Shown here: positions 10,774-19,344 of the stretch, piece by piece | Position numbering within the stretch: position 1 is the stretch's first letter | Layout: each line of letters begins with the position of its first letter | Assembly (NCBI GenBank): GCA_903901425.1 | Contig: CAIURC010000193.1 | Span: 1 to 35,040 of the forward strand | DNA: 35,040 bases | Direction: 5' to 3' | DNA from: an uncultured Spartobacteria bacterium | Lineage (GTDB): Bacteria > Verrucomicrobiota > Verrucomicrobiia > Chthoniobacterales > Chthoniobacteraceae | Position numbers and translations under genes: made by a program | The notes under the pieces: generated by a model | Seen by the model: only the letters and a program-made list of their open reading frames with translations | The model's database searches: none | Told to the model about the DNA's origin: nothing

Positions 10774-11997
10774 CTACGGCTTGTAGTATGGCCCGAGAAC
10801 TTCCAAGACCTTTGCCCGGAGTTCCTCGCCGTCCACCATCCCGTTCTTTCTCCAGAGGATCTCACCTCCGGCTCCCACCAGAATCGTGTGTGGAATTGCC
10901 CCGGGCCAATCCGGATCGAGAGCCGTCATAAGGTCGGCTACCCGGGTACCGCTGAACAGGTAACTGTTTGTGCTCCGCCCCTCGGCTTGGACCGACTTGC
11001 GCAACCGGTCCGACATCCCCGCCCCACGCTTTTCCAGAAAGGCCTTGACCTGCCCCGCGGCCCCGGGATCGTCCGCGCTGATTGAGACAAACTCAAAGTT
11101 GCGGAGGTCAAACTTCCGGGCGGTGGCGACCAACTCCGGGAACTCGGCCACACACGGGCCGCACCACGTCGCCCACACATTGATCAAGCGCACCTTCGAG
11201 GTCCCGTTTTTCCTGAGGCGCTCGGCACCCGCAACGTCCACCAACTCCACATCCACCGGGGTGGAGTCCCACTTCGCAAGCCGCTCGGCAACCTTCGCCT
11301 TTTTTTCAAGCCACTTTGTAGAGCACCCATGCGGCTTGGTGACCGGCACGGCAAGCTCCCGACCCGCCAGCAACGATTCCACAGCATTGCGCGCATCCGC
11401 ACTCCTCACCGTTGCCGGGTCAGCGTACCGCGAATCATCCAACTGCCCCCGGTAACGCAACCTGCGGTCCGCGTCAAAAATGAACACATGCGGTGTCGCC
11501 AGACATCCATACGCCTTGGCGACCGCCTGAGTCTCTCCGTCGTACAAGTACGGAAACTTGAACCCCGCCTCGGCCGCATACTTTTTCATGTCCTCGAAAC
11601 CATCATCGTACTTGGAGTACCCAAGTTCGTCCGGAGTGAGTCCCTCCGGGTTGTTCGGATTGATGGCCACCACCTCCACCCCCATCCCCTTGTAATCCTG
11701 CTGGAGGCGCATCAGGCGGCCCTCTGCAGCATGCGAATCGGGACAATGATTTGAGATGAACGCCACCAGCAGGACCCGCGCTCCGGAGTAATCCTTGAGC
11801 CGATGCGTTTTCCCATCAATCCCAGGCAGACTGAAGTCGGGTGCCGCATCTCCAATCGCCAGTTCCTTCAGGTCCCCAGGAAGCACCGCGCTCGCCGGTT
11901 TTTTTTCCTGCGCTGCAGCCCCCGCTGTCCATGTGCCAAAACCGATCCAAACCAGACCCAGCGCAATGCCAATCGGGGAAAAAATGGGGGGCTTCAT
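10774..11997 (-). CDS. Exported double-thioredoxin-fold protein (redoxin plus TlpA-like)
   Basis: This 407-residue protein has an N-terminal signal or anchor segment (about residues 8-30) and two thioredoxin folds. The first (about 45-215) is AhpC/TSA-like with a single cysteine in SNHCPDSHA (C85), where many relatives also have an NHCP motif. The second (about 265-400) is TlpA/ResA-like, with a complete CxxC active site, WATWCGPC (C279, C282), and the cis-proline-type segment GAIPHTILVG. This suggests thiol-disulfide exchange or peroxide reduction outside the cytoplasm. The ATG at 11997 places the hydrophobic segment at the N terminus; the frame is open further upstream to 12117, into the PBP gene end, but that extension has no signal-like start. 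Confidence 0.84.
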   Translation of the reverse strand: MKPPIFSPIGIALGLVWIGFGTWTAGAAAQEKKPASAVLPGDLKELAIGDAAPDFSLPGIDGKTHRLKDYSGARVLLVAFISNHCPDSHAAEGRLMRLQQDYKGMGVEVVAINPNNPEGLTPDELGYSKYDDGFEDMKKYAAEAGFKFPYLYDGETQAVAKAYGCLATPHVFIFDADRRLRYRGQLDDSRYADPATVRSADARNAVESLLAGRELAVPVTKPHGCSTKWLEKKAKVAERLAKWDSTPVDVELVDVAGAERLRKNGTSKVRLINVWATWCGPCVAEFPELVATARKFDLRNFEFVSISADDPGAAGQVKAFLEKRGAGMSDRLRKSVQAEGRSTNSYLFSGTRVADLMTALDPDWPGAIPHTILVGAGGEILWRKNGMVDGEELRAKVLEVLGPYYKP

Positions 11998-12088
11998 TCC
12001 CAAAGTTTCCCGGCAACCCCAGCGGCTGGCAATCCCGATTTCTGCTCCTGAACATCTGCCGGCACAGCCCAAACCAAACCCAGAAAAC

Positions 12089-14557
12089 TCAGAACCGAAT
12101 CGGAGCCGGAGGCGCAAGCTTCAACCCTGCCGGATCCTGATTCTCAATCAAATCCGCCGGCTTGACCGGCGCCGCCCGGCGCACATTGGAGGCCGGTTCA
12201 TCCTCCGGAACCGGTCGCGCAGCGGGTTCGGGTGGCGGCGCCACGGCGCGGGCGGTTCCGAAGGGATCCCGGCTTCCCAGTACGGTGGGCCCTTTCATCG
12301 CGATCGGAGACCGGGTCTCGGCCTCCACCGAAAGCGCCGCAACCGCTTTGCCGCCCTCTTTTCCAGAAGCGGCTCCCGGCTTGGATCGTGGGATTCCGCT
12401 ATGCACGTCACAGGGTTCGGTGGGCACTTGGCTGGGAGCAGCGATTTCCGTGATCACCGTACGGCGCCGCACCTTCTCTCCAGTCTCTTTGTTTTCGAGG
12501 TTCTCGAAGCATTTCTCCGTGGGCAACAGCCCCGAAACTGAACACACCTCACAGGAGGACAACCCATCCGGCTTGGGGATTTCTTTCGGGGGATACCGGC
12601 CGTAGGTGGCTCCCATAATGTCGACCCAGATGGGAAGGGCCACCTCGCTCCCAAAAGCGCCGAAATAAATGCTCGGATGGTTTTTGTCGAACCCGGCCCA
12701 TACCCCGCAGGTCACCTCGCTGCTGTAGCCCAAAAACCAGGCATCGGTGAAATTGTAGGCCGTGCCGGGCTTGCCCCCGAGAGGAGCGCGTTTCAAACCC
12801 AGTTCACCGAAGGTTTTGAAAGCGGGCCCGCGTTCGAGGACTTCCGTGAGGCAGGAATGCACCTCATAGGCGGTGGTTGGCTTTAAAACCCGTTTCACCT
12901 GCGGCTGAGCGCGGAAAACCACCTGCCCGTCCTGATTCTCAACCCGCGTGATCAAATACCCCTGTTTGGGACGGACCCCTCCATTGGGAAAGAGGGTGTG
13001 GGCGAGCGTCATCTCCATCAAGCTCACCTCGCTGCTGCCCAGAAAAGTCGACGGATAGGGCCGGAACGGATGCTCGAATCCTGCCTCCTTGGCCAAGGCA
13101 ATCACACGGTCCAGCTTCGCCTGAGTGCCAAACCGCACCGTCGCTGCATTCTTGGATTTCACCAGGGCCTCCCGGGCCGTAATCGGCCCCTCGTACTGGT
13201 TGTCCTCCTGTTCCACGCCCCATTCCGGCAGAAGTCCCGTGGTGCCTCCGATCATGACCTGGCGGTTGTCCATCTGGGTGTCCTGCACCACCGTCCCCGG
13301 AAACAGCCCCCCTTCAAAACCCGCCGCGTACACCATCGGCAGAAAACCCGTCCCGGCCGGCACCAGCGCATTGACCCGGTTAAACTCACTGTGCTGGCAG
13401 TCGCGCCCTCCCACCATCGAAAGAATCGCTCCCGTTTTGTTGTCCAAAACCAGAACCGCACCCTGCAAGTACTCGGGTGCCCCCAATTCCGGCAGTTCCC
13501 CCTTGGGCCCGCGCGTGTGAACCTTAAACAGAGCCTCGTAACTTGAAAAATTCGGGTGTTTGTACCCTTCCCGCTTCTCCACCTGGGTTAGCCGGTCCCG
13601 GAGCGCCTGTTCCGCCTTCTTCTGAAGCGCCGGATCAATGGTCGTGAAAATCCGGTAGCCGTCGCTCATCGCACTGTCACGACCCACCATTTTTTCCATC
13701 TCCCGCGCCACCATGTCCGCCGGATAGGATTCCTGATGCGTCGGACGCCGGTTCTTTACCAGAAGCTGTTTTTCACGATTCGCCTCATACTCCTCGCTGG
13801 AGATCAGCCCCAGATCCAGCGCCCGCATCAAAACATAGTTCCGCTGATCCAAACATGCCTGGCGGTTCCGCCACGGCGAAAGATTGCTCGGGCTCTTCAA
13901 CAGTCCAGCCAGAGTCGCCGCCTCCGAAAGATCCAAATCCCGGGCATGCTTCCCAAAATACCCGCGCGCCGCCGCCTCCGCACCGTAAAAGCCGGACCCG
14001 AAAAACACCCGGTTCAAATACAGTTCGAGGATGGTTTTCTTGTCGCACCTCCGCTCGATCTCCAGAGCCACAAAAATCTCCAGAATTTTCCGGCCCGGAG
14101 TCTTGTCCGCAGCGGGCAGTTGATCCGGGAAAGTGTTTCGGGCGAGCTGCTGGGTGATGGTGCTTGCCCCCTGGGCCGCCCTGCGCTTCTGCCAGTTGCG
14201 GACCACGGCCCGGACGATCCCTTGGTAATCCACGCCGTGATGCTGGTAAAACCGTGCGTCTTCTGCAGCCACGACCGCCGTTAAAAGAGCTGGCGAAAGA
14301 TCCCCCAGCGCCACCTGCTCCCGGTTCTGGACAAAAATCCTGCCCAAAATTCCTCCGTCCCGGTCATAAATGATGCTGGCAGATTCCATCTGGGCAAGCC
14401 GCCCATAATCGAACCCGCGGGCCTTTGCCTCCCAGCGCCCTTTTTCCAACCAGAGCCAGCCAGAACCGAGGATCAGGAGGCTTCCCAACACTCCCGCAAG
14501 CCCCAGAAACCAGGTTCTGAGGTAAATCGGCTTAGGGGGACGCAAATCTTGCCACAT
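12089..14557 (-). CDS. Class A penicillin-binding protein (PBP1A type) with degenerate transpeptidase motifs
   Basis: The 822-residue membrane protein has a transmembrane anchor (about residues 14-37) and a GT51 glycosyltransferase domain (about 60-235) with the catalytic EDARFYQHHG motif (E99), GASTITQQLARN and ELYLNRVFFG all intact. The transpeptidase domain (about 365-660) keeps SKN (468-470), but the SxxK box reads TGFL (403-406), with Thr for the nucleophilic Ser and Leu for the Lys, and the KTG box reads KPG (596-598). I checked these codons on the DNA: ACG, CTG and AAG-CCC-GGC. A cysteine-containing Pro/Ala-rich tail follows. The ATG at 14557 has AGGAGG ten bases upstream, which decides the start over ATG 14626. 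It probably polymerises glycan strands but may not crosslink them. Confidence 0.9.
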   Translation of the reverse strand: MWQDLRPPKPIYLRTWFLGLAGVLGSLLILGSGWLWLEKGRWEAKARGFDYGRLAQMESASIIYDRDGGILGRIFVQNREQVALGDLSPALLTAVVAAEDARFYQHHGVDYQGIVRAVVRNWQKRRAAQGASTITQQLARNTFPDQLPAADKTPGRKILEIFVALEIERRCDKKTILELYLNRVFFGSGFYGAEAAARGYFGKHARDLDLSEAATLAGLLKSPSNLSPWRNRQACLDQRNYVLMRALDLGLISSEEYEANREKQLLVKNRRPTHQESYPADMVAREMEKMVGRDSAMSDGYRIFTTIDPALQKKAEQALRDRLTQVEKREGYKHPNFSSYEALFKVHTRGPKGELPELGAPEYLQGAVLVLDNKTGAILSMVGGRDCQHSEFNRVNALVPAGTGFLPMVYAAGFEGGLFPGTVVQDTQMDNRQVMIGGTTGLLPEWGVEQEDNQYEGPITAREALVKSKNAATVRFGTQAKLDRVIALAKEAGFEHPFRPYPSTFLGSSEVSLMEMTLAHTLFPNGGVRPKQGYLITRVENQDGQVVFRAQPQVKRVLKPTTAYEVHSCLTEVLERGPAFKTFGELGLKRAPLGGKPGTAYNFTDAWFLGYSSEVTCGVWAGFDKNHPSIYFGAFGSEVALPIWVDIMGATYGRYPPKEIPKPDGLSSCEVCSVSGLLPTEKCFENLENKETGEKVRRRTVITEIAAPSQVPTEPCDVHSGIPRSKPGAASGKEGGKAVAALSVEAETRSPIAMKGPTVLGSRDPFGTARAVAPPPEPAARPVPEDEPASNVRRAAPVKPADLIENQDPAGLKLAPPAPIRF

Positions 14558-14632
14558 CGGATGGGCTTCCTCCTTCCCATTTAATCTCCCCTCAGGCAAT
14601 GAAACTTTGCCATCAGCCCTGCCCACTCTCCC

Positions 14633-17516: not shown

Positions 17517-18437
17517 TCAGGAGCGGGTGAGGCCCCACGCCAGAAGCCGGTGCGAGTCGGTCCAGATCGAGTCCCTCTTATCTCCCAGAACCACCGCGAT
17601 CACCTCGCGCGATCCGACTGCGGCACTCGACACCAGACAGAATCCCGCCGCATCCGTGTACCCCGTCTTCAACCCGTTGCAGGCACTCAGACTGGTCAGC
17701 ACCCGGTTGGTGTTGTTGAAGACCTTCTGGCTGCCGTCGGGATAGGTCCACGCGAGCGACTTCATGCAGGTGATCCCGCGCAAAGCCTTGTTCCGGTAGG
17801 CAGCCCGGGCCAGCACAGACATGTCCCGAGCCGTCGAGTACTGCCCCTTGGCCGGCAGCCCGTTGGGATTCACAAAGTGCGAGTTCACCATCCCCAACTG
17901 CTGCGCCTTCTGGTTCATCCGCTCCGCAAATGCCTCCACGCTGCCCGCATGGTCGCGAGCAAGGCACCGCGCCACATCGTTCATGCTCTTCACCAGCAGG
18001 ACCTGCAAAAGTTTCAACCTCGAATAAACCTCACCGGGCTTGATGTACAACTTCGACGGCTCCGCGTACGTGTCCGGCACCGCCACCCGCACCGGTTCCT
18101 CCAGACCGCCCCGCTCCGCCACCAGCAACGCCGTCATCAACTTCTGGGTGCTCGCCACCGGCCGCTTCTGGTCCGCATTCCACTCGTACAAAACCGCCCC
18201 ACTCCGTGCATCCACCAGAATCGCAGCCGCCGCCTGAACCGCAGGCGCACCCCGTCCTGTTGACGCATCGGTCCCGGGTACCTTTGCAGACGAAACTTTC
18301 GGCGCAGCACTGGCTCCGGAGGGCTTGGCCGGCGCCACCGGCAACGCCTTGCGCACCGTTGCCGGAGCCTCGGCAGCTTCCAGGCGCCACCCCAGGAAAA
18401 GGGAACACAGAGACAAAACCAAAAGAAAACGATGCAT
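17517..18437 (-). CDS. D-alanyl-D-alanine carboxypeptidase family protein (peptidase S11)
   Basis: The 306-residue exported protein trims or opens peptidoglycan peptides. After a signal peptide (about 1-22) and an Ala/Pro-rich linker, the S11 domain (about 65-300) has all three active-site boxes: STQK (96-99), SMN (151-153) and KTG (257-259). The C-terminal beta domain and amphipathic anchor of DacA are missing, so it may be a soluble periplasmic enzyme. The ATG at 18437 has AGAGGAGG six bases upstream; the longer frame to 18830 lies over the preceding TPR gene. It is the third gene of the proC-TPR-dac-bioF operon. Confidence 0.88.
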   Translation of the reverse strand: MHRFLLVLSLCSLFLGWRLEAAEAPATVRKALPVAPAKPSGASAAPKVSSAKVPGTDASTGRGAPAVQAAAAILVDARSGAVLYEWNADQKRPVASTQKLMTALLVAERGGLEEPVRVAVPDTYAEPSKLYIKPGEVYSRLKLLQVLLVKSMNDVARCLARDHAGSVEAFAERMNQKAQQLGMVNSHFVNPNGLPAKGQYSTARDMSVLARAAYRNKALRGITCMKSLAWTYPDGSQKVFNNTNRVLTSLSACNGLKTGYTDAAGFCLVSSAAVGSREVIAVVLGDKRDSIWTDSHRLLAWGLTRS

Positions 18438-18495
18438 CCCATCCTCCTCTCTCAATTTGCGCGGGGAATCAAGCGCACCCTCCTCGCTCTCCACT

Positions 18496-19344
18496 CTACT
18501 GCCCCTCAAAAGCCCCCGGACTCGGCAACGCCCCCTCGCCCGCAAACGTTTTTTCCATGCCCGAATCCGGTGCAGTGCCCAGCTCCCGGGCCCTGGCATA
18601 ATGCCGCCGGGCCAACTCCAAGGCCGGCGGCGTCCGTTGCAGGTAAAACACCGCCAGATTGAAATGCGCCTCCGCGTACTCCGGATCCAACTCCACCGCA
18701 CGCCGCATTTCGGCCTCCGCCGCAGAATACCATCCCTTGGCGCCGAGTGCCGCACCCAGGAAATGGTGGGCCCTAGCGTCTTTGGGCGCGTAAAGAACCG
18801 CCTGCGCCAACGCGGCAAACGCATGCTCAATTCTGTCCGACTCGTACTCCACCATCCCCAAAATCAACCATCCCAGCCCGTTTTCAGGCTGCCATCGCAC
18901 CAGGCGCGTCAGAAGTTGTCGCGCCTCCCCGTACTTTCGACGCCGGTACTCCACCAACCCCAAGTTGACCGTTGCGGAGGGATTGACCGGCGACAACTCC
19001 AGCACCTGACGAAAATCCCGTCCCGCAGCCTCCAGATCCCCCCGCCCAAACGCCGCCACAGCCCGGTCAAAAAGCCGTTGCGCCTCCGGGTTCTTCCGCG
19101 GTGACGCCCCCTCCTTGGGCGCCGTCCCACCACCCCCTGGCCCGGTTGGCTGCATCGGCTGCAACAAATCCCGGATCCCGCCCCCCGCAGGCTTGGTCCT
19201 GAACCCGATTCCCGGCGCTTTTGCCTCAGTCGCCGGACCGCCCCCTTCTGCCGCGCACAACACGGGCACGAAAAGACAAAGCCCACCCAAAAATGTGGCG
19301 ACCCCAAAAAGGGAAAGCCCGCGAAGGAATGCGCTGCACCTCAT
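18496..19344 (-). CDS. Secreted TPR-repeat protein
   Basis: This 282-residue protein carries a signal peptide (about 1-31), a Gly/Pro-rich linker, and about five tetratricopeptide repeats (about 84-262), for example ATVNLGLVEYRRRKYGEARQ and AHHFLGAALGAKGWYSAAEA. Its C-terminal repeats closely match those at the end of the large coiled-coil protein at 8461-10770. Its start overlaps the proC stop by 4 bases (ATGA), so it is translationally coupled to proC. The likely role is a periplasmic or envelope scaffold, with the two peptidoglycan-related genes nearby; no partner is identifiable. Confidence 0.82.
   Translation of the reverse strand: MRCSAFLRGLSLFGVATFLGGLCLFVPVLCAAEGGGPATEAKAPGIGFRTKPAGGGIRDLLQPMQPTGPGGGGTAPKEGASPRKNPEAQRLFDRAVAAFGRGDLEAAGRDFRQVLELSPVNPSATVNLGLVEYRRRKYGEARQLLTRLVRWQPENGLGWLILGMVEYESDRIEHAFAALAQAVLYAPKDARAHHFLGAALGAKGWYSAAEAEMRRAVELDPEYAEAHFNLAVFYLQRTPPALELARRHYARARELGTAPDSGMEKTFAGEGALPSPGAFEGQ

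Follow-up and report, generated by a model that had tools for sequence, protein, structure and literature searches.

A paralog clade of PBP1A-like proteins in Verrucomicrobiota with intact glycosyltransferase residues and graded loss of transpeptidase motifs

Class A penicillin-binding proteins (PBPs) are taken to be bifunctional enzymes, each molecule coupling glycan polymerisation to crosslinking, and are also regarded as β-lactam targets. There are precedents in other bacteria for a dispensable transpeptidase. In Escherichia coli, the glycosyltransferase (GT) activity of PBP1b, and not its transpeptidase (TP) activity, is required for YcbB-mediated crosslinking, and a GT paired with a dead TP serine (PBP1b S510A) suffices given an L,D-transpeptidase and a D,D-carboxypeptidase (PMC5089857). 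In Clostridioides difficile, cells can divide without the TP activity of PBP1, but they need it to grow (PMC12154710). Here we describe a class A PBP homologue encoded in a 35,040-nucleotide stretch of DNA (the window) that, to judge from its sequence, would resemble S510A in using its GT without a TP serine. S510A is a laboratory point mutant, whereas the window PBP belongs to a natural, conserved lineage (clade I).

Its closest described relatives are the bifunctional enzymes of the PBP1A family (TIGR02074; structures 4oon, 5u2g and 3udf), with which it shares architecture, GT catalytic residues, TP fold and the SKN motif. Unlike them, it lacks both the serine and the lysine of SxxK, reads KPG for KTG, carries an additional conserved motif in its tail and scores below the curated TIGR02074 (PBP_1a_fam) cut-off (474.8 against 508.75). 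In predicted output, glycan polymerisation without crosslinking, it resembles the monofunctional MtgA (TIGR02070). However, it retains a full-length TP domain under selection and also falls below the MtgA cut-off (140.3 against 182.65). Because two catalytic boxes are altered and the PBP_1a_fam cut-off is not reached, we classify it as a PBP1A-family paralog with a degenerate TP and not as a bifunctional PBP.

Table 1 Features of the window PBP and of the nearby S11 gene; residues are numbered from Met24 of the 845-residue open reading frame
Feature	Position	Strand	Details
Full open reading frame of the window PBP	12092-14626	-	845 aa; GTG start at 14626
Clade I class A PBP homologue	12092-14557	-	822 aa from Met24
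GT domain (Transgly, PF00912)	13823-14350	-	profile match
TP domain (PF00905)	12719-13462	-	above cut-off; catalytic motifs degenerate
T-G-F-L in the place of SxxK	13340-13351	-	T403 (ACG, 13349-13351), G404, F405, L406 (CTG, 13340-13342); codons and alignment
S-K-N (SxN motif), kept	13148-13156	-	S468, K469, N470; codons and alignment
K-P-G in the place of KTG	12764-12772	-	K596 (AAG), P597 (CCC), G598 (GGC); codons and alignment
PTVLGSRDPF, clade-I-specific motif	12260-12289	-	low-confidence C-terminal tail
S11 D-Ala-D-Ala carboxypeptidase homologue	17517-18830	-	STQK, SMN and KTG complete

An earlier note on the window had described an intact GT joined to a TP domain with TxxL and KPG in place of its catalytic boxes, in secure alignment. 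Direct reading of the codons confirmed these changes where the note had placed them, the span 12764-13351 running exactly from T403 to G598. The GT51 domain scores about 200-204 bits and holds the catalytic glutamates of both EDxxF and RKxxE. The C-terminal PF00905 domain scores low, at about 48.6-51 bits, yet lies above its cut-off of 22.1 and is predicted to keep the expected fold; within it only SxN conforms to the class A pattern. The motif register is fixed by orthologs and by a phmmer alignment to Pseudomonas aeruginosa PBP1A (4oon), in which GTGFLP falls on GSSFKP and GKPGT on GKTGT. An AlphaFold2 model (mean pLDDT 87.5, with about 95 for the greater part of the TP domain and 64-81 around residues 431-460) agrees with this register: T403 opens helix 402-415 and K596 lies within strand 594-599, as fits the SxxK and KTG elements. 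The best matches of the model in the PDB are bifunctional PBPs, headed by 5u2g (Foldseek E = 1.6e-38). A different active site elsewhere in the protein was considered and ruled out, since S-x-x-K does not occur once among the 845 residues. The prediction that transpeptidation by the usual serine and lysine is lost is thus supported for this protein, as far as sequence can indicate.

The window lies in a 5.1-Mb assembly of 224 contigs, and KPG is a single base away from KTG, so we weighed whether the motif codons could be artefacts of sequencing or assembly. Such an artefact is extremely improbable, because orthologs from other assemblies carry the same changes: TGFL or TEFL in five genomes, and KPG in two further loci (L067 and L097). 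TGFL and KPG recur in other clade I branches, and threonine at the catalytic serine position (S*) is found in most of the clade, including on a complete chromosome. Assembly error was accordingly rejected for the clade as a whole, and the observation of the earlier note stands as real.

The note had treated the protein as a single case. That view is incomplete, because the protein is one member of an old clade of paralogs whose motifs have been lost to differing degrees. Nearly all relatives within the order have two PBP1A-like proteins, a canonical paralog (on contig 103 in the window genome) and an ortholog of the window PBP, and the two separate with support of 100/100 in a tree from which the motif columns were excluded. 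Clade I is present in Chthoniobacterales and in two further families, the Akkermansia-family (f15) and f35, all within one class of Verrucomicrobiota. The nearest isolate-named relative of the window genome among those searched is Chthoniobacter flavus, whose ortholog reads TAFK. A complete single chromosome of the Akkermansia-family (G149), which we take to be A. muciniphila ATCC BAA-835, has a clade I copy reading TAIL, SKI and KTG. Among 195 genomes drawn from the phylum, clade I members were found only within the class; matches beyond it reached about E = 1e-61 at best and lay mainly over the GT part. One sequence titled Akkermansia muciniphila (L042, CAMCYN010000029.1) appears to be mislabelled, because its PBP is identical in motifs, length and score to that of L026, from genus g4 of the window's own family.

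We compared the motifs of 77 clade I sequences with those of 24 sister-clade proteins. The canonical paralog carries S-x-x-K, SRN and KTGT or KTGN in 24 of 24. Within clade I, S* is threonine in 67 and serine in ten. The SxxK lysine is kept in 30 and replaced in the other 47 by leucine (24), threonine (18) or another residue (five; the replacements overall are L, T, G, Q, I, V or A). Both residues are gone in 46 members and at least one in 68, which leaves nine with fully canonical TP motifs, nested within the clade; those nine, at least, may therefore be active. A further pattern, TAFK/SKN/KTG, is retained in 18. The SxN serine has become glycine in 16 sequences and alanine in one, and the asparagine has become isoleucine in 16. 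The lysines of KTG (77/77) and SxN (76/77) are invariant or nearly so, as are both catalytic GT glutamates (77/77). KTG is kept in most members, with proline in the middle in three (the window PBP, L067 and L097). Loss is thus graded: replacement of serine by threonine is nearly universal, lysine is lost in many, and most members retain KTG and SxN. The earlier note had proposed checking for a conserved lineage with TxxL and KPG; such a lineage exists as regards the SxxK changes, but KPG is confined to the three proteins named.

With the tree rooted on the canonical paralog, the serine forms (genus g4 and L016) sit within the threonine clade, so regain of serine is the parsimonious reading: three changes when regain is allowed (one loss, two regains) against twelve losses without it. 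The corresponding figures for lysine are seven and ten. Serine may then have been regained, although change between serine and threonine is easy. Gene conversion from the canonical paralog was considered as a source of the SAFK forms and judged unlikely, as the flanks differ (PPGSAFKP versus RQVGSTFKP).

Purifying selection on the clade I TP domain is strong. In close pairs, TP dN/dS is about 0.03-0.14 among most TxxL proteins of the Akkermansia-family, near the values of the GT, and 0.05 in a TGFL pair (L020/L023), again similar to the GT domains; a canonical pair (L132/L134) gives 0.027, not far from these. The estimates are restricted to close pairs, as distant pairs were saturated or biased in composition and were ignored. 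The TP positions that are invariant and specific to clade I include D430, N431 and E445, and DP[YF] occurs in the last 150 residues of 65 of the 77 members, compared with one of the 24 sister-clade proteins. Low dN/dS, the invariant positions, a confident model and the conserved tail motif together indicate that the domain is maintained and not decaying.

Further degenerate homologues were noticed. The Akkermansia-family encodes homologues of about 600 aa (L172, at G149:C1:1489800-1492600, and L166, L167 and L168; L121 is of the same kind) with an intact-looking GT and no TP motifs. Like clade I, they appear to have kept the GT and lost TP catalysis. They represent another paralog, however, one that has none of SxxK, SxN and KTG and in which no Pfam TP domain is detected; in L172, Pfam recognises the Transgly domain only. 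TP motifs have also been lost, as a separate instance, in two very long class A PBP homologues of about 1300-1380 aa from other families of the class, which read SVLQ/GNQ/MPG (L135, G103:C104) and AVLQ/GNT/MNG (L136, G138:C23). A homologue of about 697 aa (L138, G121:C1:363000-366000) reads TAFL/GKT/WGG and lies on a long branch.

The earlier note had predicted that the enzyme cannot crosslink by the usual route. This applies to the window PBP alone and not to its genome, where an inventory of PBPs found one canonical class A PBP, three PBPs of class B type in which STFK, SxN and KTG are canonical, two SEDS proteins and 11 matches to YkuD (the L,D-transpeptidase family). Because these other crosslinking enzymes are present, the activity lost from the window PBP can be covered. 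The S11 peptidase does have the full active site that the note had ascribed to it. Besides it, the genes near the window PBP include bioF, a methyltransferase, a TPR protein and P5C reductase. Of the eleven loci compared, some of which are short, only that of C. flavus (L039) shares this neighbourhood, and the same holds for the S11 gene as a neighbour among the loci checked. Operon context is for that reason uninformative on function, and we dropped it as a clue. A further reading frame of the window (10774-12117, minus strand) encodes a two-part protein, an AhpC/TSA (redoxin) part and after it a thioredoxin-like part that contains a WCGPC motif. Two 0.9-Mb single-contig genomes of the order (G041 and G050), possibly those of reduced symbionts, have 0-1 YkuD matches and lack any class A PBP that matches the window PBP.

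We consider it probable that the window PBP is a glycan polymerase whose non-catalytic TP domain is retained for a structural, regulatory or docking role, with crosslinking left to other enzymes. A membrane-anchored PBP1A-like GT would polymerise lipid II into glycan, as its intact catalytic residues suggest, and the attached TP domain would no longer acylate or crosslink. Going by the inventory, crosslinks would be made in trans by the canonical class A paralog, the class B PBPs and/or L,D-transpeptidases. The TP domain would persist as a folded module that may position or activate the GT, bind stem peptide (conceivably through the near-invariant lysines of KTG and SxN) or dock partners, and the conserved DP[YF] tail perhaps aids this role. 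Counting against this reading are the nine nested canonical members, the 18 TAFK/SKN/KTG members and the retention of KTG in most of the clade; the hydroxyl at S* may also still matter, because it is never lost in 77 members. That same hydroxyl, the conserved KTG and SxN lysines, the invariant D430, N431 and E445 and the strong purifying selection on the domain speak for a rival reading in which Thr403 would be a slow working nucleophile, in a threonine-based transpeptidase or carboxypeptidase with another base (the KTG lysine, the SKN lysine or an acidic residue particular to the clade, for example E445 or D430). A threonine nucleophile is most plausible for the TAFK members and possible for TxxK members generally. 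For the window PBP we rate it as improbable, because the general-base lysine and the KTG threonine are both gone; across the clade, SxxK lysine is lost in 47 of 77, SxN serine in 17 and SxN asparagine in 16, and in the model the threonine may merely cap the N-terminus of helix 402-415.

The opposite possibility, a TP domain that is dead, has no function of its own and is kept only for folding or stability of the GT, would suit the graded and variable loss of residues, as expected once catalysis is dispensable, and also the Akkermansia-family homologue of about 600 aa that has lost all three TP motifs. We regard it as unlikely, given that close pairs show TP dN/dS values about as low as those of the GT and that a selected role is indicated by the clade-specific invariant positions and the conserved tail motif. 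In a special case of the preferred polymerase reading, the protein would be a dedicated GT of a β-lactam-insensitive L,D-transpeptidase pathway, in which a D,D-carboxypeptidase such as the nearby S11 enzyme would supply tetrapeptides and YkuD enzymes would form 3-3 crosslinks. E. coli requires just such a trio of GT, L,D-transpeptidase and D,D-carboxypeptidase (PMC5089857), and YkuD matches number 4-17 in the clade-holding genomes of the order and 7-14 in those of f15 and f35. The sole genus with mostly canonical clade I sites (g4) has fewer, a mean of 6.1 compared with 11.2 in its family. However, this is a single phylogenetic contrast, other families break the trend, other genomes with a degenerate TP (G036, G044 and G056) have just 4-5 YkuD matches, and the S11 linkage is confined to Chthoniobacter among the loci checked; we rate the pathway reading as rather unlikely. 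Similarly unlikely is a fuller scenario of an ancient class A paralog whose TP domain became a non-catalytic regulatory or peptide-sensing module, with β-lactam-insensitive polymerisation coupled to L,D-transpeptidases and serine regained twice.

We found no description of clade I, and nothing relevant on class A PBPs with an inactive TP or on serine-to-threonine change in SxxK, in the open-access literature searched, a body that does not cover most subscription journals; clade I proteins go unmentioned in the main text of the essential-genome paper on Verrucomicrobium spinosum. The clade is a half-disarmed PBP lineage, conserved across a large part of a single class of Verrucomicrobiota, including the human gut species A. 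muciniphila. For genes annotated as PBP1A in this phylum, those of A. muciniphila among them, crosslinking or penicillin binding should therefore not be assumed. Clade I offers a natural series that begins with SAFK, passes through TAFK and ends with TAFT, TGFL and TAIL. With it, the contribution of a TP domain to a GT beyond catalysis becomes testable, as does the regain of lost active sites.
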